Source of the DNA: Ectocarpus siliculosus
Lineage: Eukaryota; Sar; Phaeophyceae; Ectocarpales; Ectocarpaceae
Assembly: GCA_000310025.1 (NCBI GenBank)
Contig: FN647857.1
Coordinates: 184,161 to 248,160, forward strand
Direction of reading: 5' to 3'
Length of the DNA: 64,000 nt
The notes under the pieces were generated by a model. The model ran no database searches and was not told where the DNA came from. It saw only the letters and a program-made list of their open reading frames with translations. How positions within the stretch are numbered: the first letter of the stretch is position 1; every line of letters starts with the position of its first letter. The translations under genes and the position numbers were made by a program. Shown here in pieces: positions 7,125-49,196 of the stretch.

Positions 7125-8640
7125 CTACGGCGCGGCTGCGATCAGGCCGTTGGCGCACTTCCCGCCATTCGCAAAAAAGTCCACGCTGCTTTGCAACGTT
7201 TCGGCAGTCTTGGGGCTTGCGGAGTCCAGCTTGTCCGCGGCGATGGTGCAGGTAAAGCGGGGCTTGACTAGGGGGATGTCCCAGATGGACGCCTCCTTGA
7301 AGAGGTTCTGGCCCACCCAACCACGGGGGTCAATGAACCACACTCCGGGCGTTTCGCGGGAGTAGGCGACCGCGGCCAGCACCTGATACGTGCGAAATGA
7401 GGGGTTTCGCAACAAAACCGGCGTCACTGTCGGCGACGACGTTCGGATTGGTAGCAGTACAACACATGCCCAAAGGCTGTACGTGCAACAGATTCGCAAA
7501 AAGACGGAAGACAAAAAACAAAAACACGCCATGTTGATGACGCGACAACTTTCACGCACCACCCGAAGACACACGCCGTACATACCTGAGGGACGGCGGA
7601 GACCTGGTCGAAGTCAACGAACTTCTGAAGCGCGATCACGGCATCCCCGTCTCCGTCTCCCTGCAGGCCGTCGGAACCAATCTTCAACCCGAGCGCCTCC
7701 CTTAGGTAGTAGTTCGCATCTCCCGGCAGCATCAGGTCGGTACCCTGCGTGAAGGACGGCGCCTCGAACCCGAGCACCGACGCCGAGCGGCGGCTCAGCT
7801 CCGTGTCGTGGTAGCTCCCCTGAGAGCCCGCGTGCACGACCAGGAGGTCGCCCCGCGGGGAGTGGGTGTCCTTGGAGGTGAAGGACCGGGAGAGAACGGA
7901 CCCCGGCTTGACGTACAGGATAAGCTCGCTGAAGGAGCAGTACTTGTCCGCGTACAAGGTCGCCGTGGCGGGGTTCTGGGTGCCGGAAACCGTGACGCCG
8001 GGAAGACGGCCCATGGACCTAGAATTTCCAGCGAGCGAGGGAGCAGCAGAAAGTGGACGACATTTTTCATTTTTTAAACACGGAAGGCGGCGAGTTCTAC
8101 TACACAACACTCTCATGCCTCGAGCGCTGGATACCAAAGAGGAACATGGTGTAAATCTCGAGACTCTCTCGTGATTCCAACCAAGTACACGCACGCACAC
8201 ACGAGCAAACATGGTGTAAGGGAGGTATTGTACACGTACCCTACATAGCTGTATCACACTACCAACACCAGTAGTACCTCTCGTATGCGTCGAGTCCCTC
8301 CGCCTCAGCAGCGACAGCCACCTTCATGCCCGGCATGAACTGCAGGATGCTCTTCACGGTCACCTCCCACATGGCCTCCTCGCCCGCCCAACCGCTGACG
8401 AAGGCGCACAGGTTGCCGCGCTCCACTTCGCCGAGGTACGTCCGCTCTGCCGCCGCCTCGAAGAAGCGGACCGCCTTCTCCCTACCGCCAACCTCGACGT
8501 CCACGCGAGGCTCAAAGCCGTCCTCCGAGTCCTCGTCCTCGCTGTTCTCGGCTTCCGTTAGCCGTGCGAGCTCAAGAGAGAAGTCCTGGTGGCCAGACAG
8601 GCGGCGGCCGTAGACGTCGACCGGCTCTCTGGTCGAGCAC
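7125..8640 (-). CDS. Gene A exons 27-29: C-terminal glycosyltransferase-like half
   Basis: The exons are 8278-8640 (363 bp), 7586-8018 (433 bp) and 7125-7382 (258 bp, ending in TAG). The first starts as a CST exon (CSTREPVDVYGRRL) but, instead of the KW segment, runs into AMWEVTVKSILQFMPGMKVA. The second holds LPGVTVSGTQNPATATLYAD, LILYVKPGSVLSRSFTSKD and HSPRGDLLVVHAG. The last holds TPGVWFIDPRGWVGQNLFKE. Alternating hydrophobic strands and the ADKYC and SKD segments suggest a second GT-A-like fold, which is inference. This block is conserved at the same place in genes B and C, so it fixes the 3' end of the family. Confidence 0.75.
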
Positions 8641-11600
8641 CTGTCCCGATCAGGAAAAAGCGAATCGGGCGACAGGAGGCGCAGGCGAAGAGATTGATGC
8701 CCATGGTTAAGGGAGAAAAGGGGGGGCGAGGGCCAAACGAGAAGTGTAATGGCTGCCCATCAACGTTCGACGTTGTCTGCCCGCCTCGGCACAACCGTCC
8801 GCAGAAGGGTATCCCAACGCCTAGCCATGCACATCATCATGCGTCTCACATGATCGCGCGGTTCCCGGGCGTGTCCTGCTTGCGGGCCTTCTCGTCGTCG
8901 TTGTAGCAAGCGCGGCAGTCCGCACCGTACTTTCCGTTCTTGGCGCCGCATCCGAGAGTACCGTACACATTCGGGCTGGAGCAATTCGAGTCGCACACGC
9001 GTCCCCTGGTGCCGTCCTTGCTCGTGTACTCGCACCCGTCCATGCACCTGTCGTGGGTGAAAAACAGAAAACTTGAGCAATCTAGATTCTGTACGAGCCA
9101 AGGACATCGGCGGAACATGGTCATCTTCCGAACGCAACGCGTAACAACTCCAGTATTAAGATTGCAAGGGAATAATATCACAGGAGACTATTGCTTTGGC
9201 CACCACTGCAACGAAACCTGTTGCCGGATGTTCACAAAATATTTCCATCTATGCTCTCGGTTCAACAAGCGCATAGACGAGATGCCAAGATCACTCACCC
9301 TTCCTCATCCGAAGAGTCCTCGTACTGCTTCTTCCACTTCTGGTTGCGCTTCCACCTGCGACGATGCGACAGCACATAACAAAAAAGAGCAAGAAGGTCA
9401 AGAACGCTCGACAGCATGCTGAAAAACCAATGGGTCGCGTTGTGCCGAAGCGATCGACGCACAACCAATATTCGCCGATCGAACAATATCAAGCTGCGTT
9501 CTTTATCAACAGCGATCGCTAACGTATAAACAAGCTTCGACAAAAAATTATTAACTGGTCCACTAAACAACCTCACGTCTTCCGAAGGAAATACGCACTT
9601 GGGGACCGTGTTGTTCTTCCACTTCTCCTGTGCCCTCCACTTCGGCACATCCTCCGAAAGCTGGCGGTGCTCCTCGTCCTTCTGGAGGGCCTCCAGATCA
9701 CGGGCGACGAGGAGAGGGTTGCTCTCGTCGGCGGGAGTCAGGCGGCGGCCGTACACGTCCACGGGCATCTTGGTCGAGCACCTGCAAGTGCATCAAGTAG
9801 AAATTCCGACGAGCTCGTCAGCAACTCATTCGAAGTGGAAAACATTCAAGTATATTGGCTGCTTATAGCAGCGGTCGACAGTGCCTGTTGGCCTAGGCAC
9901 ATCCATCCGCAACAGGGTATCCCAACGCCTAGCCATGCACATCACCATGCGTCTCACATGATCGCGCGGTTCCCGGGCGTGTCCTGCTTGCGGGCCTTCT
10001 CGTCGTCGTTGTAGCAAGCGCGGCAGTCCGCACCGTACTTTCCGTTCTTGGCGCCGCATCCGAGAGTACCGTACACGTTCGAGCTGGAGCAGTTCGAGTC
10101 GCACACGCGTCCCCTGGTGCCGTCCTTGCTCGTGTACTCGCACCCGTCCATGCACCTGTCGTGAGTGAAAAACAGAAAACTTGAGCAATCTAGATTCTGT
10201 ACGAGCCAGGGACATCGGCGGAACATGGTCATCTTCCGAACGCAACGCGTAAACAACCCCAGTATTAAGATTGCAAGGAATTTAAAAGACGGACGCCAAC
10301 ATCACTCACCCTTCCTCATCCGAAGAGTCCTCGTACTGCTTCTTCCACTTCTGGTTGCGCTTCCACCTGCGGCGATGCGGCAGCACATAACAAAACAGAG
10401 CAAGAAGGTCAATAACCTCCCGACAGCCTGCAGGCACACCAATGGGTCGCTTTGTGCAGAAGCGATCGACGCACAGCCAACAGTCGCCGATCGAACAATA
10501 TCAACATTTTCGATAAAGAGTCAATAGTGTTCAGGTCTTCCTTTATCAACGAGCTTCGACAAACCATTATGAACTCGTCTGCTCAACAACCTCATGTGTT
10601 CCGAAGGAAATACGCACTTGGGGACCGTGTTGTTCTTCCACTTCTCCTGTGCCCTCCACTTCGGCACATCCTCCGAAAGCTGGCGGTGCACCTCGTCCTT
10701 CTGGAGGGCCTCCAGATCACGGGCGACGAGGAGAGGGTTGCTCTCGTCGGCGGGAGTCAGGCGGCGGCCGTACACGTCCACGGGCATCTTGGTCGAGCAC
10801 CTGCCCATCAAGATCAACGGGTAAAAGAAGCATGGAGGCGAGAAACGCCAATCGTAAACGGAAAACAGGCAAGGGTCGAGTGACGGATGACAGCGGAGTC
10901 ACGAGCGCACTCTGCTTCAGCTTCGTCGTGCAAGGCCACTGCGTGTTGGGGTATCGGGTAAGGCTGCAACGGCAGCGGATGGAAGTGCATCAAGTACTTA
11001 GTTCCGACAAGCTTGTCAGCGAGCCACTCAAGATGAAAAACATTCAAGTATACTGGCTGCGTATAGCAGCGGTCGACAGTGCCTGTTGGCCTAGGCACAT
11101 CCATCCGCAACAGGGTATCCCAACGCCTAGCCATGCACATCACCATGCGTCTCACATGATCGCGCGGTTCCCGGGCGTGTCCTGCTTGCGGGCCTTCTCG
11201 TCGTCGTTGTAGCAAGCGCGGCAGTCCGCACCGTACTTTCCGTTCTTGGCGCCGCATCCAAGAGTACCGTACACATTCGGGCTGGAGCAGTTTGAGTCGC
11301 ACACGCGTCCCCTGGTGCCGTCCTTGCTCGTGTACTCGCACCCGTCCATGCACCTGTCGTGGGTGAAAAACAGAAAACTTGAGCAATCTAGATTCTGTAC
11401 GCGCCAGGGACATCGGCGGAACATGGTCATCTTCCGAACGCAACGCGTAAACAACCCCAGTATTAAGATTGCAAGGAATTTATAAGACGAGACGCCAAGG
11501 TCACTCACCCTTCCTCATCCGAAGAGTCCTCGTACTGCTTCTTCCACTTCTGGTTGCGCTTCCACCTGCGGCGATGCGACAGCACACAACAAAACAGAGC

Positions 11601-14600
11601 AAGAAGGTCAATAGCCGCTCGAACGCCTGCTGGACACCAATGGGTCGCATTGTCCCGAGGCGATCGACGCACAGCCAATAGTAGCCGATCGAACAATATC
11701 AAAATGCGTTATATATCAACAGCGATCGCTAAAATATTCAACAAAGAGTCAATAGTGTTCAGGTCTTCCTTTGTCAACAAGCTTCGACAAACCATTGTGA
11801 ACTCGTCTGCTCAACAACCTCACGTGTCCTTACGTGTTCCGAAGGAAATACGCACTTGGGGACCGTGTTGTTCTTCCACTTCTCCTGTGCCCTCCACTTC
11901 GGCACATCCTCCGAAAGCTGGCGGTGCACCTCGTCCTTCTGGAGGGCCTCCAGATCACGGGCGACGAGGAGAGGGTTGCTCTCGTCGGCGGGAGTCAGGC
12001 GGCGGCCGTACACGTCCACGGGCATCTTGGTCGAGCACCTGCCCATCAAGATCAATCGGGTAAAAGAAGCGCGTGGAGGCGAGAAACGCCAATCGTTCAC
12101 GGAGAAACAGGCAAGGATCGAGTGACGAGACGGCGGAGTCACGAGCGCATTCTGCTTCAGCTTCGTCGTGCAAGGCCACTGCGTGTTGGGGTGTCGGGTA
12201 AGGCTGCAACGGCAGCGGATGGAAGTGCATCAACTACTTAGTTCCGACAAGCTTGTCAGCAAGCCATTCAAGACGAAAAACATTCAAGTATATTGGCTGC
12301 TTATAGCAGCGGTCGACAGTGCCTGCTGGCCTAGGCACATCGATCCGCAACAGGGTATCCCAACGCCTAGCCATGCACATCATCATGCGTCTCACATGAT
12401 CGCGCGGTTCCCGGGCGTGTCCTGCTTGCGGGCCTTCTCGTCGTCGTTGTAGCAAGCGCGGCAGTCCGCACCGTACTTTCCGTTCTTGGCGCCGCATCCG
12501 AGAGTACCGTACACATTCGGGCTGGAGCAGTTCGAGTCGCACACGCGTCCCCTGGTGCCGTCCTTGCTCGTGTACTCGCACCCGTCCATGCACCTGTCGT
12601 GGGTGAAAAACAGAAAACTTGAGCAATCTGATTCTGTACGCGCCAGGGACATCGGCGGAACATGGTCATCTTCCGAACGCAACGCGTAAACAACTCCAGT
12701 ATTAAGATTGCAAGGGAATAATATCAGAGACTATTGCTTTGGCCACCACTGCAACGGAACCTGTTGCCGGATGTTCACAAAATATTTCCATCTATGCTCT
12801 CGGTTCAACAAGCCGCATAGACGAGACGCCAAGATCACTCACCCTTCCTCATCCGAAGAGTCCTCGTACTGCTTCTTCCACTTCTGGTTGCGCTTCCACC
12901 TGCGACGATGCGACAGCACATAACAAAAAAGAGCAAGAAGGTCAAGAACGCTCGACAGCATGCTGAAACACCAATGGGTCGCGTTGTGCCGAAGCGATCG
13001 ACGCACAACCAATATTCGCCGATCGAACAATATCAAGCTGCGTTCTTTATCAACAGCGATCGCTAACGTATAAACAAGCTTCGACAAAAAATTATTAACT
13101 GGTCCACTAAACAACCTCACGTCTTCCGAAGGAAATACGCACTTGGGGACCGTGTTGTTCTTCCACTTCTCCTGTGCCCTCCACTTCGGCACATCCTCCG
13201 AAAGCTGGCGGTGCACCTCGTCCTTCTGGAGGGCCTCCAGATCACGGGCGACGAGGAGAGGGTTGCTCTCGTCGGCGGGAGTCAGGCGGCGGCCGTACAC
13301 GTCCACGGGCATCTTGGTCGAGCACCTGCAAGTGCATCAAGTAGAAATTCCGACGAGCTCGTCAGCAACTCATTCGAAGTGGAAAACATTCAAGTATATT
13401 GGCTGCTTATAGCAGCGGTCGACAGTGCCTGTTGGCCTCGGCACATCCATCCGCAACAGGGTATCCCAACGCCTAGCCATGCACATCACCATGCGTCTCA
13501 CATGATCGCGCGGTTCCCGGGCGTGTCCTGCTTGCGGGCCTTCTCGTCGTCGTTGTAGCAAGCGCGGCAGTCCGCACCGTACTTTCCGCTCTTGGCGCCG
13601 CATCCGAGAGTACCGTACACGTTCGAGCTGGAGCAGTTCGAGTCGCACACGCGTCCCCTGGTGCCGTCCTTGCTCGTGTACTCGCACCCGTCCATGCACC
13701 TGTCGTGGGTGAAAAACAGAAAACTTGAGCAATCTAGATTCTGTACGCGCCAGGGACATCGGCGGAACATGGTCATCTTCCGAACAAAACGCGTAAACAA
13801 CTCCAGTATTGAGATTGCAAGGAATTTAAAACACGAGACGCCAAGATCACTCACCCTTCCTCATCCGAAGAGTCCTCGTACTGCTTCTTCCACTTCTGGT
13901 TGCGCTTCCACCTGCGGCGATGCGACAGCACATAACGAAACAGAGCAAGAAGGTCAATAACCTCTCGACAGCCTGCAGGCACACCAACCGGTCGCATTGT
14001 CCCGAAGCGATTGACGCACAGCCAACAGTCGCCGATCGAACAAATATCAACCATTTTCAATAAAGAGTCAATAGTGTTCAGGTCTTCCTTTATCAACGAG
14101 CTTCGACAAACCATTATTAACTCGTCTGCTCAACAACCTCACGTCATTCGAAAGAAATACGCACTTGGGGACCGTGTTGTTTTTCCACTTCTCCTGTGCC
14201 CTCCACTTCGGCACATCCTCCGAAAGCTGGCGGTGCACCTCGTCCTTCTGGAGGGCCTCCAGATCACGGGCGACGAGGAGAGGGTTGCTCTCGTCGGCGG
14301 GAGTCAGGCGGCGGCCGTACACGTCCACGGGCATCTTGGTCGAGCACCTGCCCATCAAGATCAATCGGGTAAAAGAAGCGTGGAGGCGAGAAACGCCAAT
14401 CGTTCACGAAGACAGAGGATCGAGTGACGGATGACGGCGGAGTCACGAGCGCACTCTGCTTCAGCTTCGTCGTGCAAGGCCACTGCGTGTTGGGGTATCG
14501 GGTAAGGCTGCAACGGCAGCGGATGGAAGTCCATCAACTACTTAGTTCCGACAAGCTCGTCAGCAACTCATTCGAAGTGGAAAACATTCAAGTATATTGG

Positions 14601-17600
14601 CTGCTTATAGCAGCGGTCGACAGTGCCTGCTGGCCTAGGCACATCCATCCGCAACAGGGTATCCCAACGCCTAGCCATGCACATCACCATGCGTCTCACA
14701 TGATCGCGCGGTTCCCGGGCGTGTCCTGCTTGCGGGCCTTCTCGTCGTCGTTGTAGCAAGCGCGGCAGTCCGCACCGTACTTTCCGTTCTTGGCGCCGCA
14801 TCCAAGAGTACCGTACACGTTCGAGCTGGAGCAGTTCGAGTCGCACACGCGTCCCCTGGTGCCGTCCTTGCTCGTGTACTCGCACCCGTCCATGCACCTG
14901 TCGTGGGTGAAAAACAGAAAACTTGAGCAATCTAGATTCTGTACGCGCCAGGGACATCGGCGGAACATGGTCATCTTCCGAACGCAACGCGTAAACAACT
15001 CCAGTATTAAGATTGCAAGGGAATAATATCACGAAGACTATTGCTTTGGTCACCACTGCAACGGAACCTGTTGCCGGATGTTCACAAAATATTTCCATCT
15101 ATGCTCTCGGTTCAACAAGCGCAGAGACGAGATGCCAAGATCACTCACCCTTCCTCATCCGAAGAGTCCTCGTACTGCTTCCTTCCACTTCTGGTTGCGC
15201 TTCCACCTGCGACGATGCGACAGCACATAACAAAAAAGAGCAAGAAGGTCAAGAACGCTCGACAGCATGCTGAAACACCAATGGGTCGCGTTGTGCCGAA
15301 GCGATCGACGCACAACCAATATTCGCCGATCGAACAATATCAAGCTGCGTTCTTTATCAACAGCGATCGCTAACGTATAAACAAGCTTCGACAAAAAATT
15401 ATTAACTGGTCCACTAAACAACCTCACGTCTTCCGAAGGAAATACGCACTTGGGGACCGTGTTGTTCTTCCACTTCTCCTGTGCCCTCCACTTCGGCACA
15501 TCCTCCGAAAGCTGGCGGTGCTCCTCGTCCTTCTGGAGGGCCTCCAGATCACGGGCGACGAGGAGAGGATTCACCTCGTCGGCGGTAGTCAGGCGGCGGC
15601 CGTACACGTCCACGGGCATCTTGGTCGAGCACCTGCAAGTGCATCAAGTACAAATTCCGACGAGCTCGTCAGCAAGCCATTCAAGATGAAAAACATTCAA
15701 GTATACTGGCTGCTTATAGCAGCGGTCGACAGTGCCTGCTGGCCTAGGCACATCCATCCGCAACAGGGTATCCCAACGCCTAGCCATGCACATCACCATG
15801 CGTCTCACATGATCGCGCGGTTCCCGGGCGTGTCCTGCTTGCGGGCCTTCTCGTCGTCGTTGTAGCAAGCGCGGCAGTCCGCACCGTACTTTCCGTTCTT
15901 GGCGCCGCATCCGAGAGTACCGTACACGTTCGAGCTGGAGCAGTTCGAGTCGCACACGCGTCCCCTGGTGCCGTCCTTGCTCGTGTACTCGCACCCGTCC
16001 ATGCACCTGTCGTGGGTGAGAAACAGAAAACTTGAGCAATCTAGATTCTGTACGCGCCAGGGACATCGGCGGAACATGGTCATCTTCCGAACGCAACGCG
16101 TAAACAACCCCAGTATTGAGATTGCAAGGAATTTAAAACACGAGACGCCAAGGTCACTCACCCTTCCTCATCCGAAGAGTCCTCGTACTGCTTCTTCCAC
16201 TTCTGGTTGCGCTTCCACCTGCGGCGATGCGACAGCACACAACAAAACAGAGCAAGAAGGTCAATAGCCGCTCGAAAGCCTGCTGGACACGAACGGGTCG
16301 CATTGTCCCGAAGCGATCGACGCACAGCCAATAGTCGCCGATCGAACAATATCAAACTGCGTTATATATCAACAGCGATCGCTAAAATATCCAATCAAGA
16401 GTCAATAGTGTTCAGGTCTTCCTTTGTCAACAAGCTTCGACAAACCATTATGAACTCGTCCGCTCAACAACCTCATGTGTGCCGAAGGAAATACGCACTT
16501 GGGGACCGTGTTGTTCTTCCACTTCTCCTGTGCCCTCCACTTCGGCACATCCTCCGAAAGCTGGCGGTGCACCTCGTCCTTCTGGAGGGCCTCCAGATCA
16601 CGGGCGACAAGGAGAGGGTTGCTCTCGTCGGCGGGAGTCAGGCGGCGGCCGTACACGTCCACGGGCATCTTGGTCGAGCACCTGCCCATCAAGATCAATC
16701 GGGTAAAAGAAGCGCGTGGAGGCGAGAAACGCCAATCGTTCACGGAGAAACAGGCAAGGATCGAGTGACGAGACGGCGGAGTCACGAGCGCACTCTGCTT
16801 CAGCTTCGTCGTGCAAGGCCGCTTGTTCGGGTGTCGGGTAAGGCTGCAACGGCAGCGGATGGAAGTGCATCAACTACTTAGTTCCGACAAGCTTGTCCGC
16901 AAGCCATTCAAGATGAAAAACATTCAAGTATACTGGCTGCTTATAGCAGCGGTCGACCGTGCCTGCTGGCCTAGGCACATCCATCCGCAACAGGGTATCC
17001 CAACGCCTAGCCATGCACATCACCATGCGTCTCACATGATCGCGCGGTTCCCGGGCGTGTCCTGCTTGCGGGCCTTCTCGTCGTCGTTGTAGCAAGCGCG
17101 GCAGTCCGCACCGTACTTTCCGTTCTTGGCGCCGCATCCGAGAGTACCGTACACATTCGGGCTGGAGCAGTTCGAGTCGCACACGCGTCCCCTGGTGCCG
17201 TCCTTGCTCGTGTACTCGCACCCGTCCATGCACCTGTCGAGCATGTCCGCGCACGGGGGTAGTATAAAGGGTGGATCACGTACGATTCAGCAGGTACATC
17301 ACGTTCGGTTCTACATTGTGCAACGTTCGCCTCAAGAATGGGGCAAATGATAAAATACGTGACGAAAGGTCACCGGCTTCGAATGGACGCGTAGGCCACA
17401 AACCCAAAGTCAATTACGTTTTTTGGCTCAAAGCTCCATTTTTCTCCTTCGCAGGACCGCTTGTTGATGCGTACGTTCGAGTAGCCAATAGTTTGCGCGG
17501 ACGAGCCTAATGATAACCGTCGGTCTTCAGAGCGCAAAACCATTTTACCGGATCCTTTTTCAAACCGTGCGATGTCAACGTGTTGAGGACATTGTTTACA

Positions 17601-30213: not shown

Positions 30214-30249
<36 letters not shown>

Positions 30250-30377
30250 TGCTGCTGCGACTGCTCGTGGCGAAGATTTTGACCCTCATCATGCTGCTTC
30301 GCGTATGCGTACGAGACGGCGGGTAGGACCGCTGCTGCTGCCGCCAAATAGCATTCTATCCAACGACAACAACGCAT
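24817..30377 (-). CDS. Gene B: minimal paralog with a single Cys cassette
   Basis: Gene B is a 7-exon model of 773 residues: 29979-30377, 27723-28166, 27021-27253, 26653-26850, 25931-26287, 25278-25713 and 24817-25071 (stop TAG 24817-24819). All phases agree. It keeps both glycosyltransferase-like halves of genes A and C but has one Cys exon and no KW or internal CST exon; exon 3 splices directly to the Cys exon. The ATG at 30377 begins a signal peptide (MRCCRWIECYLAAAAAVLPA). A run of 14 Gln follows at about residue 40-54. The motif that reads EWDV in A and C reads EPVV here (about residues 168-171), so a putative metal-binding Asp is missing and the enzyme may be inactive. HINGNAIYN is intact (221-229). 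Intron 6 starts with GC rather than GT. It lies between A and C on the same strand. Confidence 0.75.
25276..25277 (-). other. GC splice donor of gene B intron 6
   Basis: The exon ends CCTCAG and the intron begins GCAAGA, a good match to the rare GC-AG intron consensus. The same junction has GTATGT in gene A and GTGTTA in gene C, with the same phase 0 and the same encoded AVPQ ending. Confidence 0.65.
28202..28306. repeat. Direct duplication of about 47 bp in gene B intron 2 region
   Basis: Two copies of a segment containing aagacctccgagctgctcc (28202-28248 and 28261-28306) lie head to tail with a 12-bp spacer. They sit in intron 1 of gene B (28167-29978). Nothing suggests coding potential. 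Confidence 0.75.
30216..30257 (-). repeat. CAG/CAA microsatellite encoding 14 glutamines in gene B exon 1
   Basis: Fourteen Gln codons (thirteen CAG and one CAA) lie just before RLGVVVP. At the same place gene A has QQQ and gene C has QQ, so a short Gln seed has expanded in gene B. The nearly pure repeat should be length-variable. Confidence 0.9.
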
Positions 30378-32996: not shown

Positions 32997-33208
32997 GGTA
33001 GTAGTGTGTGTGTGTGTGTGTCTACAGCAGGTAGTGAACCGGCACTATTGGGGGGCACAGCGGCGCCCAACCGGCACTATGACGGGCCATCCCTCAATAG
33101 TGCCGGTCCGCCACTATTGAGGGCGCTGTCGGTGTCCAGAAATTTAACCGGCACTATACCGGGCACCGGCACTATTCAACCGGCGCTATAGAGGGCCCAC
33201 TACTGTCT

Positions 33209-33630: not shown

Positions 33631-33851
33631 TACCGTATATGACACAAGATAACACACCCCCTGGACCGATTTTCAAAGCTCGATTACTCCACGACGAAGA
33701 GGATGCATAAATGAAACAATACGTTTTCGAACAGCTCTCGATGAGACGGTTCCAACGCCGCCGTTTTCGGCGCTGTGACTCTTCCTGCTGTTGAGAAATC
33801 GAGCTTTGAAAATCGGCCAAGGGGGTGTGTTATCTTGTGTCATATACGGTA
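33631..33851 (+). mobile_element. 221-bp MITE, TA-flanked (copy 1)
   Basis: The element starts taccgtatatgacacaagat and ends with the inverted repeat of the same 30-bp sequence. It begins and ends with TA, as for Tc1/mariner-type Stowaway MITEs, which insert at TA. It has no coding capacity. Copy 2 at 46283-46503 has the same length in opposite orientation. Confidence 0.85.
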
Positions 33852-36957: not shown

Positions 36958-39900
36958 CTAAGGCATGAAATCAATCAGGCCGTTGGCGCATTTTCCTCCC
37001 TTCGAGAAGAAGTCGAGGTTGCTTTGCAAAACCTCGGCAGTGTTGGGGCTGCCAGGCTCCAGCTGGACGGGAGCGATGGCGCACGTGTAGCGGGGCTTGA
37101 CCAGAGGGACGTCCCAGATGGACGCCTCCTTGAACAGGTTTTGACCGACCCAAGCCTGGGGGTCGACAAACCACACTCCGGGCGTTTCGCGGGAGTAGGC
37201 GAGCGCGGCAAGTACCTGCAACGTGGATACATAAGTATAAGACGACGGAGGGCTGAACGGTGAGCGATTGCAAAGAGCGTGCACCCTATTCCTCGCGTAT
37301 GTGCATAATATAATGAAAACCGACACCAGGACCCAAACGCGAATTAACACAACTAGACAACCGAACGCAATTTTGTGACCGTTAACGCCACACGCCAAGA
37401 GCTATAATTAGCCTCCAATACACCAACGCTACACTCAACATCCACACACGAAAGACATAACACCTGGGGAACAGCGGAGACTTGGTCGAAGCCCACCAAC
37501 TCCTGAAGGGCGATCAACGAGGCCCCGTCGCCGTCGTGCTGCAGGCTGGCACCATGCCTTAGCCCGAGCGACTCCCGGAGGGCTTCGTTAGTGCCGACCG
37601 GGAGCATCAGGTCGGTGCCGTGCGTGAAGGACGGTGCATCGAACCCGAGCACCGAAGCCGAGCGGCTCCTCAGCTGGGCGTCGTGGTAGCTCCCCTGAGA
37701 GCCCGTGTAAACGACCAGGAGGTCGCTCCGCGGGGAGTGGGTGTCCTTGGAGGTGAAGGGCCGGGAGAGAACGGACCCCGGCTCGACGTACAAGATGAGA
37801 GCGGTGCCAGGCCCGCAGTACTGGTCTGCGAACAGGGCCGCCGTGGCGGGGTTCTGGGTGCTGGAAATGGTGACACCGGGGAGACCGCCCATGGACCTAG
37901 GATTGTCGGCATCGGAAGGAATAGCAGAGATAGCGTCAAGAGGCCTGATACTGGAGCACGGGAGGCGGCGAGTTTCTCGAGCGCTGTTTGACAATCAGGA
38001 GGCACGGAGAGTGCAAAAGAGAAAGACGTCCCAAGTGTCAATTACCAACGCACACCCACGCACCTCTCGTACGCGTCAAGCCCCTCCGCCTCAGCCGCGA
38101 TGGCCACCCTAATGCCCGGCATGAACTGCAGGATGCTGTTCACCGTCACCTCCCACATGGCCTCCTCGCCCGCCCGACCACCGACAAAGGCGCAAAGGTT
38201 GTGGCGCTTCAGGTCCTGGGAGTACGATCGTTCGGCCGCCTCCTCGAAGAAACGGATCGCCTGCTCTCTGTCGACGTCGACGCTCAACTCCTCCCCGACA
38301 TCCTCCGCTTCGATCATCTTGGCAACGCGAAGAGGGTCGCTCTCGTCGCTGGCAGACAAGCGGCGGCCGTAGACGTCCACTGGCATCACGGTCGAGCACC
38401 TGTCGAGATAAATCAGGCGAGTCAAGTAGGTGCGCGAAACGGGATGTGACGGACAAGGGTTCAAGCGGACTGGAGACAAAGCAGAGCAAAAGCCCATCAA
38501 GCCGTAAAGGCAAAGCACACGACATGAACATGTATGGAAAGAAAAGCAGCACCGGTAGGATACCTGCGTTGTAAGTAAAGTATAGACCGGGTTCTGTTCT
38601 CGTGTCCCTTTCACAGCCGGCAAAACACTTCATCATCCCATCGATTGGCGTTACCACAAAAGACAGATTTTTTTCAACGCATGATGGTGACCACGCGCCG
38701 CTTGTTCGCTTACATGATGGCACGGTTGTCCGGCGAGTCCTGCTTGAGGGCCCTGTCCACGTTGTTGTAGCAAACACGGCAGTCGGCGCCGTAGATTCCC
38801 TGCTTGGCGCCGCATCCCTTGGTGCCGTACACGTTCGGGCTGGAGCAGTTCGAGTCGCACACGCGTCCCTTGGTGCCGTCCTTGCTCGTGTACGTGCAGC
38901 GGGACGAGCACCTGCATCGAGAATTAATCCACCACGGGGGAGACCGAGAGCTGGTGAGCACGACAACGTTTGACTGAAAAAGACCCTCTAGACATCAAGG
39001 TCGCTTCGATGGGTGCACCAAGGGTATGAACAAACGGGCAAGGTCCGTTGAAGCTCGGATTGGTCAACATTCCAAAAAAGATTGTTGCAGACGTACATTA
39101 CCAACGATTCGACATTGCCCAAGCTGCTTCCAGGCCCTTGCAGTTGGACACGAACAGCGCTACCAAGTTTTCAAACCAATCGTGTTTGACGCAAAACTTG
39201 AACCATTTTTCAAGTGTATTTCAAACTTACGCTGCGTCGGAAGACGAGGAGTCATCGGAAGAATCGTTCCTGTTCTTCCACTTCTGGTTGGTTCGCCACT
39301 TGGGCTCGCTGCCGTCGTCCTTGTTCGTCTTCCACTTCTGGTTGCGCTGCCACCTGGCGTGTGGTTTGAAGGTGAAACGTGGGTTACGACGGCGTGAACC
39401 ACAAGGGAACGGTCAGCTACGTCACCCCAGGATACCGTCGGGCAGAGTTACCCCTAGGCCCCAACAGGTGCCGGATGCTCCAAACGCACGCTCGAGAAAC
39501 CCCAACTGAAGCATCTGTCATGGCAAAACCATTTCTAAGACTTCAGAAACACAACCAAATGCCACCGCAAAATACTTACTTGGGGACGCCGTCATCGTTC
39601 GCGGTCCTCCACTTCTCATTCGCCTTCCACTTCGGCACACTCGTCAGCTTCCGGTACTGGTTGACCTTCACCGCTGACTCCACCTCCTCCGACGGCGACG
39701 ATGCTTCCTCCTTCAACGCCTCCAGGCTACGGGCCACGCGGGAAGCCTCGCTCTCGTCCGCAGCCGACATACGACGGCGGTAGACGTCTACCGGCTTCAC
39801 GGTTGAGCACCTGTCGTTATTTTTCGTACCGAGGAACCAATCCGAACGGGGCACGTCAGCAAAATGACTCAATACAATCGCCCCAGAGGCCATTGGGGGG

Positions 39901-42900
39901 GAAACACATGGCCAACCCCAAGAATGAACTAGGGGTCGGGCCCCACTATCAACATTATGCTGACTTGGTCGTACATGATGGCACGGTTGTCCGGGGAGTC
40001 TTGCTTGAGGGCCCTGTCCACGTTGTTGTAGCAGACACGGCAGTCGGCGCCGTAGATTCCCTGCTTGGCGCCGCATCCCTTGGTGCCGTACACGTTCGGG
40101 CTGGAGCAGTTCGAGTCGCACACACGTCCCTTGGTCCCGTCCTTGCTCGTGTACGTGCAGCGGGACAAGCACCTGCATCGAGAATTAATTCACCACGGGG
40201 GAGACCGAGAGCTGGTGAGCAAGATGTACAATATTCGACAGTAAAAATGTTTTAAGATGAAGAGGTCAATTCGATGGGTGAACCAAAACTATGAACAAGC
40301 AGAGCTTGTTGCAGACGTACGCTACCAACGAGTTCGATATTGCTCAGCCTGCTTTCAGGCCCTCGTAGCTACACACCCAAACAGTCATAAGAGATGTTGC
40401 ATGCAGTCGTGCTTGACCCTGAACTAGTTAAATATCCAAGACCATTTTACACTCACCCTGCGTCCGAAGACGAGTCGTCGTCGGAAGAGTCGTTCCTGTT
40501 CTTCCACTTCTGGTTGGTCCGCCACTTGGGCTCGCTGCCGTCGTCCTTCGTCTTCCACTTCTGGTTGCGTTGCCACCTGAAATGCCGAGGCCATGCAGAC
40601 ACGTCCAATCCGAATAGGGCAATTCGTAAGCCTTTGCACGAGAAAAAAAGACGTGCGAAGATTGCTCGAAGAAAAAGCCCAGAAGGGCGGAGCTCAAAAT
40701 TTTGTGTGCCAGCTTCGAAACGAAAAGGCCTGTTACAGACAACGGCAGTTTCGAAGTTCGCGGTTCACCCCGCACCCACTGCGTCATAGCGACTGAAAAC
40801 AGACACAAAGAGCTACCAGAGCTCAGCTACTATAATAGCGACATTGTTTCCACGACTCCTACCAACAACGTCGAACACGCCAGAACCAGACTTCAGCAAG
40901 TGATACACTGTGTATGATGGGCAAACCTCGACATAACTCACAACAGCCAACGGCAGCACAAACACTCCTCCAACCGTTGCGAAGTACGCACTTCGGGATG
41001 CCGTCATCGTTCGCGGTCCTCCACTTCTCCTCTGCCTTCCACTTTGGCACGCTCGTAAGCTTGCGGTCCAGGCTGGCCTTCCACGACAGCGACGATGCAT
41101 CCTCCTTCAACGCCTCCAGGCTACGCGCAACGAAGGAGGGCAGGCCCTCCTCCGCGGCCGACATACGACGGCCGTAGGCATCCACCGGCATAACGGTCGA
41201 GCACCTGTTAGAGAAACAAAGGTGTCCTTGTTAGCAGACGGACCAACACAACCGCCCAAGACAAAAGGGAGCCAAAAAATACCCGCTGCTAGGCCCTCGC
41301 ATGCAACTCAAGGCAAGCTCTACTCTTGTCAGCGGTGTGTGTCGTACATGATGGCACGGTTGTCCGGTGAGTCTTGCTTGAGGGCCCTATCCAGGTCGTT
41401 GTAGCAGACACGGCAGTCGGCGCCGTAGATTCCCTGCTTGGCGTTGCATCCCTTGGTGCCGTACACGGTTGGCCTCGAGCAGTTCGAGTCACACACGCGC
41501 CCCTTGGTGCCGTCCTTGCTCGTGTACGTGCAGCGGGACGAGCATCTGCTCCCCCGGTTGAAGCAGGCAGCAGTGAACCGAAGGGGAAGCCGAATCAGAA
41601 AAATGTTACGCGTGCCGATGGCCGACGAGTTCCGCGAGAGGGGGGCAAAATTCGTTCATGGTCGAATATCGATGAAGACCTTTCGATAGGGATGAGATCT
41701 CCAGCACAGCACATTACCACCACTTCCGGGCTGATCACCACGGCCCCACCTACAAAGTATAGATTCGTCACGCATCAACGATGTCAAACTCTCACCCGGC
41801 GTCCGAAGACGAGTCGTCGTCGGAAGAGTCGTTCCTGTTCTTCCACTTCTGGTTGGTCCGCCACTTGGGCTCGCTGCCGTCGTCCTTGTTCGTCTTCCAC
41901 TTCTGGTTGCGCTGCCACCTGGCGTGTGATGCGAGGGTATAGTGTGGGCGGCGACGGCGTGAACCAAAAGGGAAGCGTCAGAAACGCAGCGCCAGGATAC
42001 CGAGTTACGCCTACACCGAACAGATGTCGGGAGCTCCTAATGCACGCTCGGAAAACTCAAACTACACCGTGTACAATGGCACAACCACTTCCACGACTTC
42101 AGACAGAAACTGACAGAAACACGAACAGAGGCCAACGGAAACACTAGGGTACGTAGTAAGTCTTACTTTCGAAATACTTACTTGGGGACGCCGTCATCGT
42201 TCGCGGTCCTCCACTTCTCATTCGCCTTCCACTTCGGCACACTCGTCAGCTTTCGGTCCCGGGTGACCTTCACCGCCGACTCCACCTCCTCCGACGGCGA
42301 CGATGCTTCCTCCTTCAACACCTCCAGGCTACGGGCCACGCGGGAAGCCTCGCTCTCGTCCACGGCCGACATACGACGGCGGTAGACGTCCACCGGCTTC
42401 ACGGTTGAGCACCTGTCGTTAATTTTCGTACCGAGGAACCAAAGCAAAACGGGACATGTCAAAAACTAACCGACAACAATCGCCCAACAGAGGGGGCGAG
42501 GAGGATGGACACATGTAAGGCGGAAAACCCACATGCAACTCGAAGCTCTACTGTACTCAATTCTGCAGACTTGGTCGTACATGATGGCACGGTTGTCCGG
42601 GGAGTCTTGCTTGAGGGCCCTGTCCACGTTGTTGTAGCAGACACGGCAGTCGGCGCCGTAGATTCCCTGCTTGGCGTTGCATCCCTTGGTGCCGTACACG
42701 TTCGGGCTGGAGCAGTTCGAGTCGCACACGCGTCCCTTGGTGCCGTCCTTGCTCGTGTACGTGCAGCGGGACGAGCACCTGCCTCGGTTCACAACAAGCA
42801 GGTGATGCGGACGGAAAATCAGGGAGTCGATACAAAGAACCCCCGACAAAATATTTGAGCCGAAGCTGTTAAGAACGCTGTCGTTAGTCATGGCGAGGAG

Positions 42901-45900
42901 GGAAAGTAGGCAAAAGGAAGGGAAATACCAAGGAATGTTTAAGGGCATAAGCCCACGTCTGGTCGGCAATTCATTCACAGAGCTTGGTGTTGAAAACAGC
43001 GACAGGCGGTTCAGCAACACCCAGTTCGTTCTTCGACTGTCGTCCGCCTTTCGTGACAAAAAACAGGTCACGCCGCGCACCCTGGGTCGGAAGACGAGGA
43101 GTCGTCGGAAGAGTCGTTCCTGTTCTTCCACTTCTGGTTGGTCCGCCACTTGGGCTCGCTGCCGTCGTTTTTGTTCGTCTTCCACTTCTGGTTGCGCTGC
43201 CACCTGGGGTGTTGCGGGGGAGTGCGCAGAAGGTCTTGACATCGGCGTTGGGCGAATCCCCAGTGGAAACACATCATTTTCATCTACATTGCACTGCCAC
43301 AGGCGATACTGCTCACCGAAAGAAAAAAAAATAGACATGGAAGCAATATGTATCAACAGAAACCACTTCCAAGGCATTGGGCGAGTATTAAACAATCATC
43401 GTCGAATCCTTCACGAAGTGCGCAGCCGACAACACGACCAATGGTCGATCCCGTTGCACACAATCTTGTGTCACTCGTCGTAAAACGCACTTAGGGACGC
43501 CGTCATCGTTCGCGGTCCTCCACTTCTCATTTGCCTTCCACTTCGGCACACTCGTCAGCTTCCGGTCCTGGTTGACCTTCACCGCCGACTGCACCTCCTC
43601 CGACGGCGACGATGCCTCCTCATTCAACGCCTCCAGGCTACGTGCAACTCGGGAGGGCTCGCTCTCGTCCGCGGCAGACATACGGCGGCGGTAGACGTCC
43701 ACCGGCTTCACGGTCGAGCACCTGTATTCAGCCGTCACAACGGACCACCAAATAGTTGAAATATCGAGTGAAAGCGCAAAAGGCCTGGCCAAGATGTACA
43801 CGGAGACCGTCATTCGCTTATAGCGTCCAACATTCAGGCTCGGTGGGTGCCATGCATACAGCAACAAACTCGCACCAAGTACACATCAACTGCGTCGTAC
43901 ATGATGGCACGGTTGTCCGGAGAGTCCTGCTTGAGGGCCCTGTCCACGTTGTTGTAGCAGACACGGCAGTCGGCGCCGTAGATTCCCTGCTTGGCGTTGC
44001 ATCCCTTGGTGCCGTACACGTTCGGGCTGGAGCAGTTCGAGTCGCACACGCGTCCCTTGGTGCCGTCCTTGCTCGTGTACGCGCAGCGGGACGAGCACCT
44101 GCTCCGGTCGGGATAACACAACGGTCACGGAGCCGACGGAAAAGAGGGCGGACAAGAAACACGTTCCATCACACTCTGGGTTGGGTGAAACAACGGATCC
44201 ATATGCCCCCGGCTCGCCGACCGCGATCGGTTGCCACTCGTCAAATGGACACCAACGATAGATTTTCACTGCCACGATAAACACCAAACAGTCTTGTGAA
44301 CATTGGCTAGGAAGTACGACCGGGTTCTCCAACAAGACGTATAAAACAAGAACACACAACGGATCCATCCAACTCACCCTGCATCCGAAGACGAGTCGTC
44401 GTCGGAAGAGTCGTTCCTGTTCTTCCACTTCTGGTTGGTCCGCCACTTGGGCTCGCTACCGTCGTCCTTGGTCTTCCACTTCTGGTTCCGTTTCCACCTG
44501 TGTGGCGCGATCAGGCCAAGCATCGACCGACGAGGGAAAGGTTAGGACAGCGACGCCGCAACGCTATCGTCCACAAAACACGATCCTGTTTCGCAAGCCT
44601 CGGACGTACAGCGTTTGTCGAAGTCGCCAACAAGCGAGAGAAATGAACGACAACAAAAGACGAAAAAACCTTGCATGGTGAAAACAATTCGCCTCAAATG
44701 GCATCAACTCAAAAAGAATTTTCGGCACAGAAAAACTTGACGTCGTCCGGTACGTCACCAGCCCTCAAGAAGCGCATGATCGGGACAAGAAGTGCAACCG
44801 GGTTTCGTCGGTCACCGAAATCGCGCCAACCAACCAACCATCCACAAACAAAATAAAAACACCGGTAAAAAAACATAAAAAACTCACTTGGGGGTGCCGT
44901 CGCCGTTGCTGTTCCTCCACTTCTCTGCCGTCTTCCACTTCGGCACGCTTGTTAGCTTCCGGCTGCGCTGCTGGGCTGGCTGGGGTTCCTCGACGGCGAC
45001 GGCAGCGGCGGCGGCGGCCCTGAAGGAGGCGACGTTGCCTTCTTCAACGCTGCTGCCGTGGATGAAAAGGGTCTGCCCCGCAACCGCGTCAGAGACCATG
45101 TCGTGGCCCACGTGCTCGAAGCCGACGGAGGAGATCTTGGAAAACGGTGCACGGGGAAGCGGGCAGGGAAAAAAAAGGACAAGGAAAGGAAGAGTTGGGT
45201 CGACGACGATGGACAACGAGGTCGGGGAATGTGGGCCGGCTTGAATCCAACGATACTACGTACTCAACGGCACATTTCATGCATACGTTCGGCGGACATT
45301 GGGATGATACTGCTGTAGGTGAAGCCGTTCATTCGAGCGCGCTCCCAACGGTTCATCGCGCACGACCCTCCTGAGAAGATGATGCTGCAAGTACTTGGTA
45401 CACAGATGAACCTGGACTGGGGTAGGGTTACCGCGAAAGGATACACCACTTCGGCCCGTACAGCGTTTGTACCGATTTCTCCGACCTGTGATCTCACCCA
45501 ACGGTTCCTCTACCTTAGCCCGCAACTTACCCTGTGCCCACGACCGAGCACTTTCCTTCCATGTACAAATACAGGTAGCATTGCCCTAAAAGAGCTTGAC
45601 AGTAAAAAAGGCGTGTGCATTCCGGACACGTATTATTGTACAGAACGAATGAAAGACAAAATGCGACCCTCCCCCGTTACCCACCAGGTTGGTCACGACG
45701 AACTTGCTCGAGTACCGCTGGTAGAGAGGCCAGCTGTACGGGAAGTCCGAGATGGTCATCCACAGCGCCACGTCGTACGGGTGCTCGTATCCCCAGCGGG
45801 ACCGGGTGTACTCCACATACTCGACGAACGCGGGGTCGTCGTTGTTGTAGATGGCGTTGCCGTTGATGTGGCCGAGCACCTGCCACATCTCCGATGCCTC

Positions 45901-48900
45901 AGCGGTCGAGTGGAACGAGGTGCCCTCGAGGTTGCTGCCCTTCACCCAGAACTCCTCGTTCACGCGGAACGCGGCGTGGTAGAGCTCCTCGAAGGAGTTG
46001 TCACTAGCGACGAGCACGTCCCACTCGATGATGGAGAGCGCGTCGTACTCGGAGAGGCTGGAGCGAACACTCTCGTCGAGGAACATGTTGTAGAACATGA
46101 CGGAGGGGCCTCGGGGATATATGTCATCCTTGAAAAGTACACGTAGACACAGCGGGGCAAAAAAAAGATGGCGTAAGTTATCGTGTGCTTCGACGATTAA
46201 GACAAGAACAGCAGCTAGCGAGAAGCCAGGCAATCATCAGTGACACAAACGCAGACGAGGGACTTCGCCGTTTTGAGAAGCATACCGTATATGACACAAG
46301 ATAACACACCCCCTTGGCCGATTTTGAAAGCTCGATTTCTCAACAGCAGGAAGAGTCACAGCGCCGAAAACGGCGGCGTTGGAACCGTCTCGTCGAGAGC
46401 TGTTCGAAAACGTATTGTTTCATTTATGCATCCTCTTCGTCGTGGAGTAATCGAGCTTTGAAAATCGGTCCAGGGGGTGTGTTATCTTGTGTCATATACG
46501 GTAGACACTGAAGGAGAGGTTTATCCGTTGCCGCAATGAATACAATTCCGTTCGTCACGTCACCCTGTACTTGCGCAGAGAGTGGAGAGAGATAGAATTT
46601 TGTGACTGCTTGCTTGTTTGTTTTCTAGTGTAAGGCATAGAATGAGATCGATGTTTTTGGAGTATGTGGTTGAATTCTCTCTTCGGGGTAATTCTTGCCC
46701 AAGGAATGAACGAAAATTAACACATTCACGAACACGCGCCCGCAAGAGCAGTTGGTTGTGGTTGGTGGTGATGGTGATGGTCGTGTTGTCTTGACTTCAA
46801 ACCCTCCGGCCTCCGCTTTAAAGCGTTCAGGATCGGCCTCCCGTCGAACTGACGAGGACTTTGTTCAACTAAATACCCACACAGCACAGGAATCGCGACA
46901 CAGATGTCCTTGCGGCGCTTTTAACCACCCATAGAGAAGTAACGCGATATTTTACGCGATACTTTCGTCGTAGTTTACACGCGGCGACGAGGGCGCTCCC
47001 TCGTGCGTCATCGGCGGTGCACGGCAGCTTGCCTCAGAAACCAACGTGTGTCAGAGACCACAGACGGGCTCAAGATTGGCGAACACAAACAATATACAGG
47101 TAGATATCCCTGCATACAAAGACAAGAATCGTGCTTGCTTCATTTACAGTTTCGGGTCGTGCATCCTGTACCAGTTGGATAAAACTTCACAGTATTTTGT
47201 CGGTCTTTCGTTCGGACCCTTCTACTCTTTTAGGCAAATCTCTCACTTCTTCCTTCAACACTGAACGGCACTGGTCTAGAACAAGCCAAGTTTGCGCTTG
47301 GTTCGCCGACCAACGATACACAACATCGCGAGAACGATAATTTTTGCGTGAAGAAGACTCTGTCGCATGTCTTCACACGGCTGCGTGGCTGCTGCTGTGT
47401 CTCACAGGTTCACAAACGCCGCGGCCCGCCCCCTCTTAATGGGTGACGAAATGGGTGACGAGCCACCCATCCTGTGGTGTACGTCTCCACAACACGGATG
47501 ATCATTCCAAGCCAAGAAAATGAATCATATGGCGCGACAATGCAGTTTTGTTTCGGATCCCCGTTCGGATTCCCCGTCGGTTTTGTTCGTGCACAGCGTA
47601 GTGAGAAAATGATTTTTGAGAAGAGAATGTGTGGATGAGCGCTGCGACACAGGGGATGGTCGAAAGGCAGCAATCCCTACTAATGTAGTGCCAACAACGA
47701 ACGTCAGGGAGTTGTATTCCCGTTGATCTCTGCCTGCTCTTTCCGACTCCGGATTCGGCAACGGCTATAAGTTGCCGCTCGTGCCTCTCGACATCACAAA
47801 TGATCACACATATCGAGAGAGCTCTCCGCTTCCGCATTGTTGGGCCGCTGGGCCCCTTGCCGATGCTTTAAAAACAACGTGTCGGAGCACCTGCGTCCAC
47901 CAAACTCTCCGGGCAATCTTGTTGCCCCGCCGTGCACCGATCAGCGCAGGGTCTGCACATCAGAGCCACTCCTTGGGTAACCCACAAGCAAGTAAGCATG
48001 GTCCCCTTGTCGACTCCTCAACAACGATCGACCATGTGGATTGACTCTTGTATATGTAGCAAGACAAAAAATTCTTGTTTCTTGTTTCGGAGCTCTTTAA
48101 CCGCCGCTCTCCTCTCACAAATATCCCCTAACTTTTGCGTGAATTGCCGCACCGAACGTTCAACGTCTCAGCGAGACATCGAAGAAAACACGAGGCCGAA
48201 GAGGTGGGATGCAACGCTCGCCGCCGAGTGACGGGCACCAACCCTCAGACTGCTTGAGACTACCACAAGTATGCAAAACGGTAAATTAGCCGGTCCTGGT
48301 GTGCGGGAACACTTTGACGTCAGCGACACACAGTTCCAACAAGGAAGAGATCGAAATACGTATTGCATGCCCCAAGTGAATTTTGTCACATCACGCACCA
48401 CAACAGACAGATTCTGACGCCTCAGGTATACGTTGGTCTCACGCTCTTGCTGTTGGCAGGTGCGGGCGCTTGAGAGGGAGGTAGCTGCGGGGCGGTTGCG
48501 GTGACGGGCATATGGTCCTTTCGAACTCTTGACTTGAACAGATGTCGTTGGGGTGAGACGTTTTTGAGAGATTTTCGGTGGTCCCCCGACGGAGCTTCCC
48601 GCGTGTGTGTCCCAAATATGTGCGAACCCAAGGTTTGGTGGGGTTTGGTCGACACGTTGTATCGGCTTTCTGTCATTACTGCTGTCGGCAAGACACACGA
48701 GTGATCAAATTCAACAGCAGTATGCGGAAGCGGTAACACGAGAGAGAGGACGCTGCTGTACGAGTCGCCGCCTCTACCAACTCGACACGCGCGCAAGAGG
48801 GCAGATCGCAATCGCGACACACCTCTCTTTCCAAGAAAAGCTTAAAAAACAACAATCGATCATTCTCACCTCTTGCGCAAGGTTGGCGTACACGATCCGC

Positions 48901-49196
48901 GTTCTCGAGAAGCAGCGGCCGGCCGTGGTGGAGATGCTCTCAAGGGCGGAGGCCGTGGCGCTGCTCTCTTCCTCCGCGTAGTACAGCACGAGGTCGGCAT
49001 TCTCGAGGGTCAGGGGCGAGCACTTGGCGGGCCATCGCTCGAGCGACGATACGGCCCTGGCGAGGTCGCCCTTGTAGGCCGGAACGACAACACCTAGCCG
49101 TTGTTGCCGTGGGGCAACTTCGTGATGATCTTGCTGCGCGAGCGCTAGGGCGGCGGGCAGGACCGCCGCGGCAGAGCGCAGCACCCGGCGAAGCAT
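36958..49196 (-). CDS. Gene C: secreted bipartite glycosyltransferase-like protein with five Cys cassettes
   Basis: Gene C is a 20-exon model of 1516 residues with consistent phases and GT-AG introns throughout. The ATG at 49196 starts a signal peptide (MLRRVLRSAAAVLPAALALA). N-terminal exons: 48870-49196, 45685-46128 and 44888-45135. C-terminal exons: 38064-38399, 37464-37896 and 36958-37215 (TAG 36958-36960). Between them are 14 cassette exons. The motifs VVVPAYKGDL, EWDV (about 144-147), FWVKGS and HINGNAIYN (about 197-205) are kept, so it is as complete as gene A. The third exon has an Ala-rich insert. Unlike gene A, its introns are diverged and its KW exons are twice as long, so its array is older. 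It is the first gene of the A-B-C array in the direction of transcription. Function as in gene A: probably secretory-pathway, sugar-related, unproven. Confidence 0.75.
38714..44497 (-). repeat. Gene C cassette array: 5 KW, 5 Cys and 4 CST exons
   Basis: KW exons: 44378-44497, 43081-43203, 41796-41918, 40457-40576, 39231-39353 (120 or 123 bp). Cys exons (198 bp): 43901-44098, 42581-42778, 41348-41545, 39975-40172, 38714-38911. CST exons: 43491-43721, 42182-42412, 40992-41204, 39580-39810 (231 bp, one of 213 bp). All junctions are phase 2. The KW exon carries two KW units (QRNQKWKTNKNDGSEPKW and RTNQKWKNRNDSS) where gene A has one. The Cys exon of 41348-41545 begins with A instead of G yet still completes a Gly codon. 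CST copies here read CSTVKPVDVYRRRM and include a SSPSEEV segment absent from gene A. Copies differ by several residues, unlike those of gene A. Confidence 0.85.
46283..46503 (-). mobile_element. 221-bp MITE, TA-flanked (copy 2), in gene C intron 1
   Basis: This is a closely similar copy, in inverse orientation, of the element at 33631-33851, with the same terminal taccgtatatgacacaagat repeat and terminal TA. It sits in the 2.7-kb first intron of gene C (46129-48869). High similarity and equal length suggest a recent family. Confidence 0.85.
46504..48869. other. Remainder of gene C intron 1
   Basis: This 2.4-kb intronic stretch has no exon with a conserved family motif and no repeat I can define. 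The 9-mer tactgctgt or its complement occurs twice (48677-48685 and 48714-48722). Confidence 0.4.

Follow-up and report, generated by a model that had tools for sequence, protein, structure and literature searches.

Cassette genes of the analysed stretch

In this work, a stretch of 64,000 nt from the brown alga Ectocarpus siliculosus (assembly GCA_000310025.1, contig FN647857.1, positions 184,161 to 248,160; hereafter the window) was analysed, and three related genes, A, B and C, were modelled on its minus strand (Table 1). The exon chains were built by hand from reading frames, repeat copies and splice signals. In these splice models, position 7125 is the last base of the gene A stop codon and position 49196 the first base of the gene C start codon. 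The models contain 53 introns (28 in A, 6 in B and 19 in C), 52 of them GT-AG; the sole GC-AG intron joins exons G2b and G2c of gene B. No inner stop was met on reading through the spliced models of genes B and C. In gene A, exon C3 carries one base more than its seven sister copies, which are mutually identical. Because the extra base breaks the frame, gene A was read with this exon skipped; the base could reflect faulty assembly, a genuine defect or an exon that is normally skipped. A fourth gene of full layout, gene D, lies on the same contig, on the opposite strand and about 255 kb from gene C (20 exons, 1463 amino acids (aa), no inner stop, five cassettes). Across the four genes, 75 of the 76 modelled exons are in frame.

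The first-pass annotation had described three paralogs with a shared signal peptide and 8, 1 and 5 Cys-rich cassettes in A, B and C between constant flanking domains. A signal-peptide-like N-terminus, judged by eye, is present on proteins A, B and C and is probably shared. The copy numbers were borne out for the 198-nt Cys-rich exon, both by the splice models and by a genome search; the repeating unit, however, comprises three exons, and gene B has no full cassette. The exons of a cassette follow in the order C, B, A and are all of symmetric phase 2, so that an exon can be skipped, or a whole cassette gained or lost, with the frame intact; every cassette junction is in phase 2 except for the shift from the exon C3 insertion. 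Exon C (57 nt in gene A, 96 nt in D, 120-123 nt in gene C) encodes a KW-rich linker with a Ser/Asp stretch at its end in genes A and C. Exon B (198 nt) encodes seven Cys, and exon A (183, 213 or 231 nt) begins with the eighth, followed by VDVYxRR[LM] or a close variant of it, then by a second KW linker. The Cys-rich segment is thus countable, as had been claimed, with an even number of eight Cys per module in a unit of about 146-184 aa including linkers, and every cassette carries sequons. The dibasic motif, including its near forms VDAYGRRM and VEGYGRRL, is absent from the first-pass annotation; it occurs once in every cassette of genes A (8), C (5) and D (5), 18 in all. The final exon A of an array is fused to the C-terminal domain. 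In gene B, the only exon A is the fused one, an exon C was looked for and not found, and the RR pair is absent at the corresponding place.

Exon B is 97.5-100% identical among the eight gene A copies and 91.9-98.5% among the five gene C copies. Since Cys exons of one gene share 91.9-100% identity, a chance origin of the repeats is excluded. Moreover, the longest exact repeat is only 340 bp in the gene A array and 154 bp in the gene C array, so the arrays are unlikely to be an assembly artefact, a possibility that the first-pass annotation had itself raised. Among cassettes of the same gene, the ratio of non-synonymous to synonymous divergence (dN/dS, omega) is 0.14, 0.20 and 0.07 for exon B and 0.43, 0.34 and 0.16 for exon A in genes A, C and D, respectively, and all pairs of gene A exon B sum to 42 synonymous versus 23 non-synonymous differences. 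By these values, same-gene cassettes are under purifying selection when averaged over exons. The ends are shared but constant only in a relative sense, with dN of 0.07-0.24 among A-D in the C-terminal part. In end domain 1, omega is higher in pairs with gene B (A-B 0.43, B-C 0.40, B-D 0.32) than in pairs without it (A-C 0.29, C-D 0.19, A-D 0.15). Gene B looks to be under relaxed constraint because of this difference, the replacement of the conserved EWD by EPV and the loss of the RR site. These losses in gene B, together with the frameshifted exon of gene A, are what would be expected if the arrays were the product of assembly error or of neutral slippage in non-functional genes. We give this explanation almost no credence: the frame is kept in all modelled exons but one, the cassettes appear to be under purifying selection, and exact repeats do not exceed 340 bp.

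Table 1. Genes, exons and cassettes modelled in the window; exons within a cassette are given in the order C, B, A.
Feature	Position	Strand	Content
Gene A	7125..21814	minus	29 exons, of which 8 are Cys-rich; 1769 aa with exon C3 skipped (splice models)
A exon N1	21494..21814	minus	signal-peptide-like N-terminus and beginning of end domain 1
A exon N2	18758..19201	minus	end domain 1 (EWD, HINGNA)
A exon LK	18336..18562	minus	linker
A cassette 1	16499..17806	minus	C1 17806-17750, B1 17233-17036, A1 16681-16499
A cassette 2	15450..16218	minus	C2 16218-16162, B2 16006-15809, A2 15632-15450
A cassette 3	14165..15206	minus	C3 15206-15149 (frame broken by an additional base), B3 14897-14700, A3 14347-14165
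A cassette 4	13143..13911	minus	C4 13911-13855, B4 13699-13502, A4 13325-13143
A cassette 5	11856..12899	minus	C5 12899-12843, B5 12593-12396, A5 12038-11856
A cassette 6	10618..11565	minus	C6 11565-11509, B6 11353-11156, A6 10800-10618; hybrid intron lengths
A cassette 7	9599..10366	minus	C7 10366-10310, B7 10155-9958, A7 9781-9599
A cassette 8	8850..9355	minus	C8 9355-9299, B8 9047-8850; exon A fused into G2a
A exon G2a	8278..8640	minus	final exon A joined to end domain 2
A exon G2b	7586..8018	minus	end domain 2
A exon G2c	7125..7382	minus	end domain 2 and stop
Gene B	24817..30377	minus	7 exons, 773 aa, one Cys-rich exon (splice models)
B exon N1	29979..30377	minus	has Gln run
B exon N2	27723..28166	minus	EPV in place of conserved EWD
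B exon LK	27021..27253	minus	
B Cys-rich exon	26653..26850	minus	
B exon G2a	25931..26287	minus	without RR site of other genes
B exon G2b	25278..25713	minus	GC donor
B exon G2c	24817..25071	minus	with stop
Gene C	36958..49196	minus	20 exons, 1516 aa, 5 cassettes (splice models)
C exon N1	48870..49196	minus	signal-peptide-like start
C exon N2	45685..46128	minus	end domain 1
C exon LK	44888..45135	minus	linker
C cassette 1	43491..44497	minus	C1 44497-44378, B1 44098-43901, A1 43721-43491
C cassette 2	42182..43203	minus	C2 43203-43081, B2 42778-42581, A2 42412-42182
C cassette 3	40992..41918	minus	C3 41918-41796, B3 41545-41348, A3 41204-40992
C cassette 4	39580..40576	minus	C4 40576-40457, B4 40172-39975, A4 39810-39580
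C cassette 5	38714..39353	minus	C5 39353-39231, B5 38911-38714; exon A fused into G2a
C exon G2a	38064..38399	minus	
C exon G2b	37464..37896	minus	end domain 2
C exon G2c	36958..37215	minus	with stop

Other features were also observed in the window. A 100-N run at 34605-34704, between genes B and C, marks either a gap in the assembly or sequence that was withheld. One 221-nt element, bounded by inverted repeats of 62 nt (92-94%), resembles a small inverted-repeat transposon; its two copies, 99% alike and in opposite orientations, lie between genes B and C (33631-33851) and in the first intron of gene C (46283-46503). The fold-back element at 33208-33535 has arms of 111 nt, 99% complementary and spaced by 106 nt. 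At 56386-57285, one long peptide string is read from both strands of adjacent stretches, which looks like a large inverted duplication. The plus-strand open frame at 59401-61509 (702 aa, stop to stop) has no Pfam match at an expectation value (E) of 1 or below and may belong to a transposon.

The family across the genome and changes in cassette number

In the source genome (189 Mb, 492 contigs), 24 copies of the Cys-rich exon were found: 14 in the window, five in gene D, two at locus C6, and one and two at two separate sites on C7. Portions of the end domains used as queries, together with the fetched loci, gave 13 loci that match both end domains on one strand. The family proposed in the first-pass annotation is therefore real but larger than three paralogs, with gene D and nine more loci having both ends. 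These nine have no full gene model, and one gene per locus was assumed; exon N1 was not found at loci C6, C20 and C87, and the end domains are about 17 kb apart in C26. In comparison with the 8, 1, 5 and 5 Cys modules of A, B, C and D, locus C6 has two, one like the A-D type and one like that at C7:2163936-2164802, and C20 has none, a Cys-free tandem repeat lying where the modules would stand. Two modules of unlike types, one of each, are present in C109, C26, C56, C42a, C42b, C112 and C87, the first type being weak and split in C112 and C87 (E 1e-5 to 3e-3; one of the pieces contains a stop). As further observations, VDVYSRRL occurs about six times in a single open frame of locus C6 (L004 ~2850-3130), and tandem KW/DVYDRRRL units with a frame change between them and no Cys module found lie in C20 (L006 ~2460-3000). 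The stretch between the end domains is repeat-prone in several members.

Genes A-D form one group in the trees of both end domains (fork support 93/92 and 100/99), in which the rows of the divergent loci are rough. Taken with the module counts of the 13 loci, this suggests that array expansion is a derived trait of the A-D group. The sister groups conflict, with end domain 1 joining A with C (88/84) and end domain 2 joining C with D (90/89). We read this conflict as exchange between paralogs, at moderate support values. A further odd member lies at L003:7599-9138, where two near-identical tandem copies of a distant end-domain-1 exon precede a single Cys module. Two second-type modules at L005:4936-5804 and ~7467-7640 group with the second module of C6 (100/99). 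About 1.7 kb downstream of the C7 module pair is a match to WSC, a carbohydrate-binding domain (E 4.3e-7). The second-type modules upstream of this match may belong to another secreted gene that uses this module, and their position fits, without proving, a carbohydrate setting. The 12 members of the Cys module scanned against Pfam gave no match to WSC (PF01822) or to EsV-1-7 (PF19114). The EsV-1-7 family is expanded in brown algae, and its motif has at least 150 matches in the source genome, which points to a brown alga. Searches with two short exon N2 peptide patterns gave 20 matching stretches in viral contigs and 62 in bacterial or archaeal genomes, none of them confirmed as a relative.

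The way in which the arrays grew can be read from the cassettes themselves. When the 24 Cys exons are placed in a tree, cassettes group by gene (A 92/95, C 100/99, D 98/98), with six rows in no group. The intron lengths of gene A alternate, so that its cassettes fall into the pairs (2,3), (4,5) and (7,8), with cassette 6 a hybrid; cassettes 2, 4 and 7 are 97.8-98.8% identical across about 1012 nt including introns. The paired intron lengths and the likeness of cassettes 2, 4 and 7 form the pattern expected of unequal exchange in two-cassette steps, by which gene A probably grew. In gene C, the introns between cassettes have a mean identity of 48-50%, versus 43-45% when shuffled, and the exons have a synonymous divergence (dS) among cassettes of only 0.12 (exon B) and 0.25 (exon A). 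Furthermore, dS of exon N2 among A, B and C is 0.08-0.13, versus 0.62-0.79 in exon G2c, and 150 nt of intron on each side of exon N2 is at shuffled identity. Exon N2 is not intrinsically slow, because its dS against loci C6 and C20 is 0.59-0.82. Gene conversion limited to, and levelling, the exons is therefore a likely reading of these sequences.

Several observations weigh against both steps. Among cassettes 2-7 of gene A, those of unlike type also resemble each other closely (92-96% identity; 95.8% for 3/6, 96.2% for 5/6 and 94.4% for 2/5), so the two-cassette pairing rests mostly on intron lengths. Some gene C intron pairs are still alike, up to 64-76%, and gene D introns average 67-73% with exon dS of 0.06 (B) and 0.18 (A), so the levelling is not purely exonic. 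Finally, dS was taken from short exons with a high third-position GC content (0.69-0.93).

Overall, the cassette anatomy and its expansion by exon duplication are very probably as described. The first-pass annotation went further and saw a system built to vary; the number does differ between paralogs, and a design to vary is an interpretation placed on that difference. We consider it rather unlikely that the arrays are a live heritable dial, in which two-cassette unequal exchange and exon-limited conversion would make the number vary among individuals and so set wall adhesion, wall stiffness or the dose of an 8-Cys peptide.

End domains and possible function

No relative of the end domains was recognised. 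Pfam, searched with the whole of protein B, both ends of C and seven pieces of divergent members, gave chance-level matches only (best E 0.071, below its cut-off). NCBIfam and PHROGs gave no match to the two ends of gene C. Against PDB sequences, the best E for exon N2 was 0.78, and nothing was found for one divergent end domain 1 or for exon G2b, the only part of end domain 2 compared with solved structures. The Cys module likewise had nothing above chance level in the profile and structure libraries. The A-D family thus has no entry in the libraries searched (Pfam, NCBIfam, PHROGs, PDB sequences). AlphaFold2 on single exons gave predicted local distance difference test (pLDDT) values of 36.5 for exon N2 and 41.3 for the Cys exon, too low for use.

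Two glycosyltransferase-like halves had been claimed in the first-pass annotation, and we dropped this label for the end domains, whose profile and structure matches are at chance level and which are unlike each other (hhalign probability 0.2%, from rough alignments). A related explanation is that both ends are divergent GT-A glycosyltransferase domains of a Golgi enzyme, with the cassettes as a lumenal spacer or substrate-binding stalk. It draws on the EWD of end domain 1, found in 9 of 10 rows with ESD or EAD at this position in C112 and C87, which presumably resembles the ExD motif of GT-A-like enzymes. On the other hand, the motif is EPV in gene B and EWN in C109, the library matches do not rise above chance, and the N-terminal hydrophobic stretch is weak as a membrane anchor. 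A Golgi enzyme is quite improbable on this balance. PF04488 had no match in the source genome and none in the control genomes either, so this absence has little weight.

By hydropathy, no internal membrane span was found in A-D, the highest mean Kyte-Doolittle value over a 19-residue window being 1.51, with none reaching 1.6. In sequence, a signal-peptide-like stretch and end domain 1 are followed by a run of near-identical cassettes and end domain 2, and each cassette consists of a basic KW-rich linker, the 8-Cys module, the VDVYxRR[LM]-type motif and a second linker. We hypothesize that A-D are modular proteins, secreted or lumenal in the secretory pathway, whose cassette number would shift through unequal exchange between introns (in two-cassette steps in gene A) while gene conversion levels the exons. 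More weakly, the protein may reside in the wall or extracellular matrix, with cassette number setting its length or valency. Each cassette could then form a disulfide knot whose basic-aromatic linker binds acidic wall polysaccharide, and the end domains could do glycan-related or anchoring work. Against this, the overall charge is not basic (248 K+R and 278 D+E in protein A), so that binding of acidic polysaccharide would depend on local KW patches, and a glycan role for end domains without a known relative is a guess. Taken as a whole, with the function of a secreted wall-matrix protein included, the chain is proposed tentatively, as somewhat less than an even prospect.

The same cassettes might instead be parts of a polyprotein precursor, in which a secretory protease cuts at VDVYxRR|[LM] to free 8-Cys peptides and the linker, and cassette number sets the dose, in the way of pheromone and neuropeptide precursors built from repeats. 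Secretory proteases often cleave after dibasic pairs. All 18 cassettes of genes A, C and D have the RR site and the equivalent position of single-copy B lacks it, the Y-x-R-R form recurs in the tandem repeats of loci C6 and C20, and near-identical cassettes within a gene are what a dose model requires. However, RR may be a binding patch, since further basic pairs (KR in WKRNQKW) occur in the linkers. In the four readable divergent genes, the stretch from the last module to end domain 2 has no basic pair in C26, C42a and C42b, and has KRK in C56. The convertase P domain (PF01483) gave no match among three candidates in the source genome, in a search from which introns can hide it and which matched in 1 of 14 control genomes. 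A precursor is considered unlikely, and the wall-matrix protein is retained as the favoured explanation.

Complex multicellularity arose in brown algae independently of plants and animals. Should cassette number vary within the species, one countable genetic change would be tied to wall mechanics or adhesion, and the four genes offer a natural series of 1, 5, 5 and 8 units for biochemistry.

Comparison with known systems

The nearest likeness in brown algae is to the ROCO (and NB-ARC-TPR) arrays of leucine-rich repeats (LRRs), in which tandem phase-2 exons of equal length differ in number among paralogs, according to PMC11378527. In those genes, one LRR of a GTPase corresponds to a single 72-bp exon and diversifying selection is reported (same source, in part), whereas the A-D cassette spans three exons with an 8-Cys module, appears to be under purifying selection and is apparently secreted. 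Of the features of the ROCO-LRR arrays, A-D thus have the symmetric phase-2 tandem exons and lack diversifying selection (omega 0.07-0.43, as exon averages). A receptor for immunity or recognition whose diversity comes from exon shuffling, in the manner of these LRR exons, would agree with the tandem phase-2 exons known from brown algae (PMC11378527, in part) and with the variation of unit number among paralogs. The cassettes are, however, homogenised within a gene (exon B omega 0.07-0.20; 42 synonymous versus 23 non-synonymous differences in gene A), and no signalling domain or membrane span was seen; neither ROC/COR nor NB-ARC had a Pfam match in full-length B or in the end regions of gene C. 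As omega is purifying on average, this reading is highly doubtful.

Outside brown algae, silk repeats are of low complexity and poor in Cys, and in A-D the Cys-rich modules lie on separate exons. Like A-D, spidroins have short non-repetitive ends flanking tandem repeats that are homogenised within the gene (parts of PMC3933166 and PMC9779670). Drosophila dumpy, a large protein of the extracellular matrix, is likewise modular, with numerous exons and Cys-rich modules, but it uses EGF and DPY modules (PMC2930355, in part), and the likeness is one of description. Repeat precursors of signalling peptides share the intragenic variation in the number of related units (excerpts of PMC5850478), to which A-D add a dibasic site per unit; A-D units are of about 146-184 aa with linkers, and their cleavage site is predicted from sequence. 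WSC proteins (PF01822) also have a secreted 8-Cys module, and on C7 a WSC match is found close to the related module pair, although the cassette exon itself has no WSC match in Pfam. The WSC domain is present in brown-algal PR-1 proteins (PMC12879055, in part).

The first-pass annotation knew of no described system with this layout. A literature search (listings, abstract openings and passages) gave no description of the A-D family, which upholds this for the family itself. By analogy with the systems above, the layout is of an already known kind, with constant ends around a homogenised repeat core of symmetric exons, and tandem phase-2 exons are familiar from brown algae. Within this kind, A-D are a clear example of proteins evolving in length through cassettes of whole exons, with shared ends, countable units and single-phase junctions, in which traces of unequal exchange and exon levelling can be seen.

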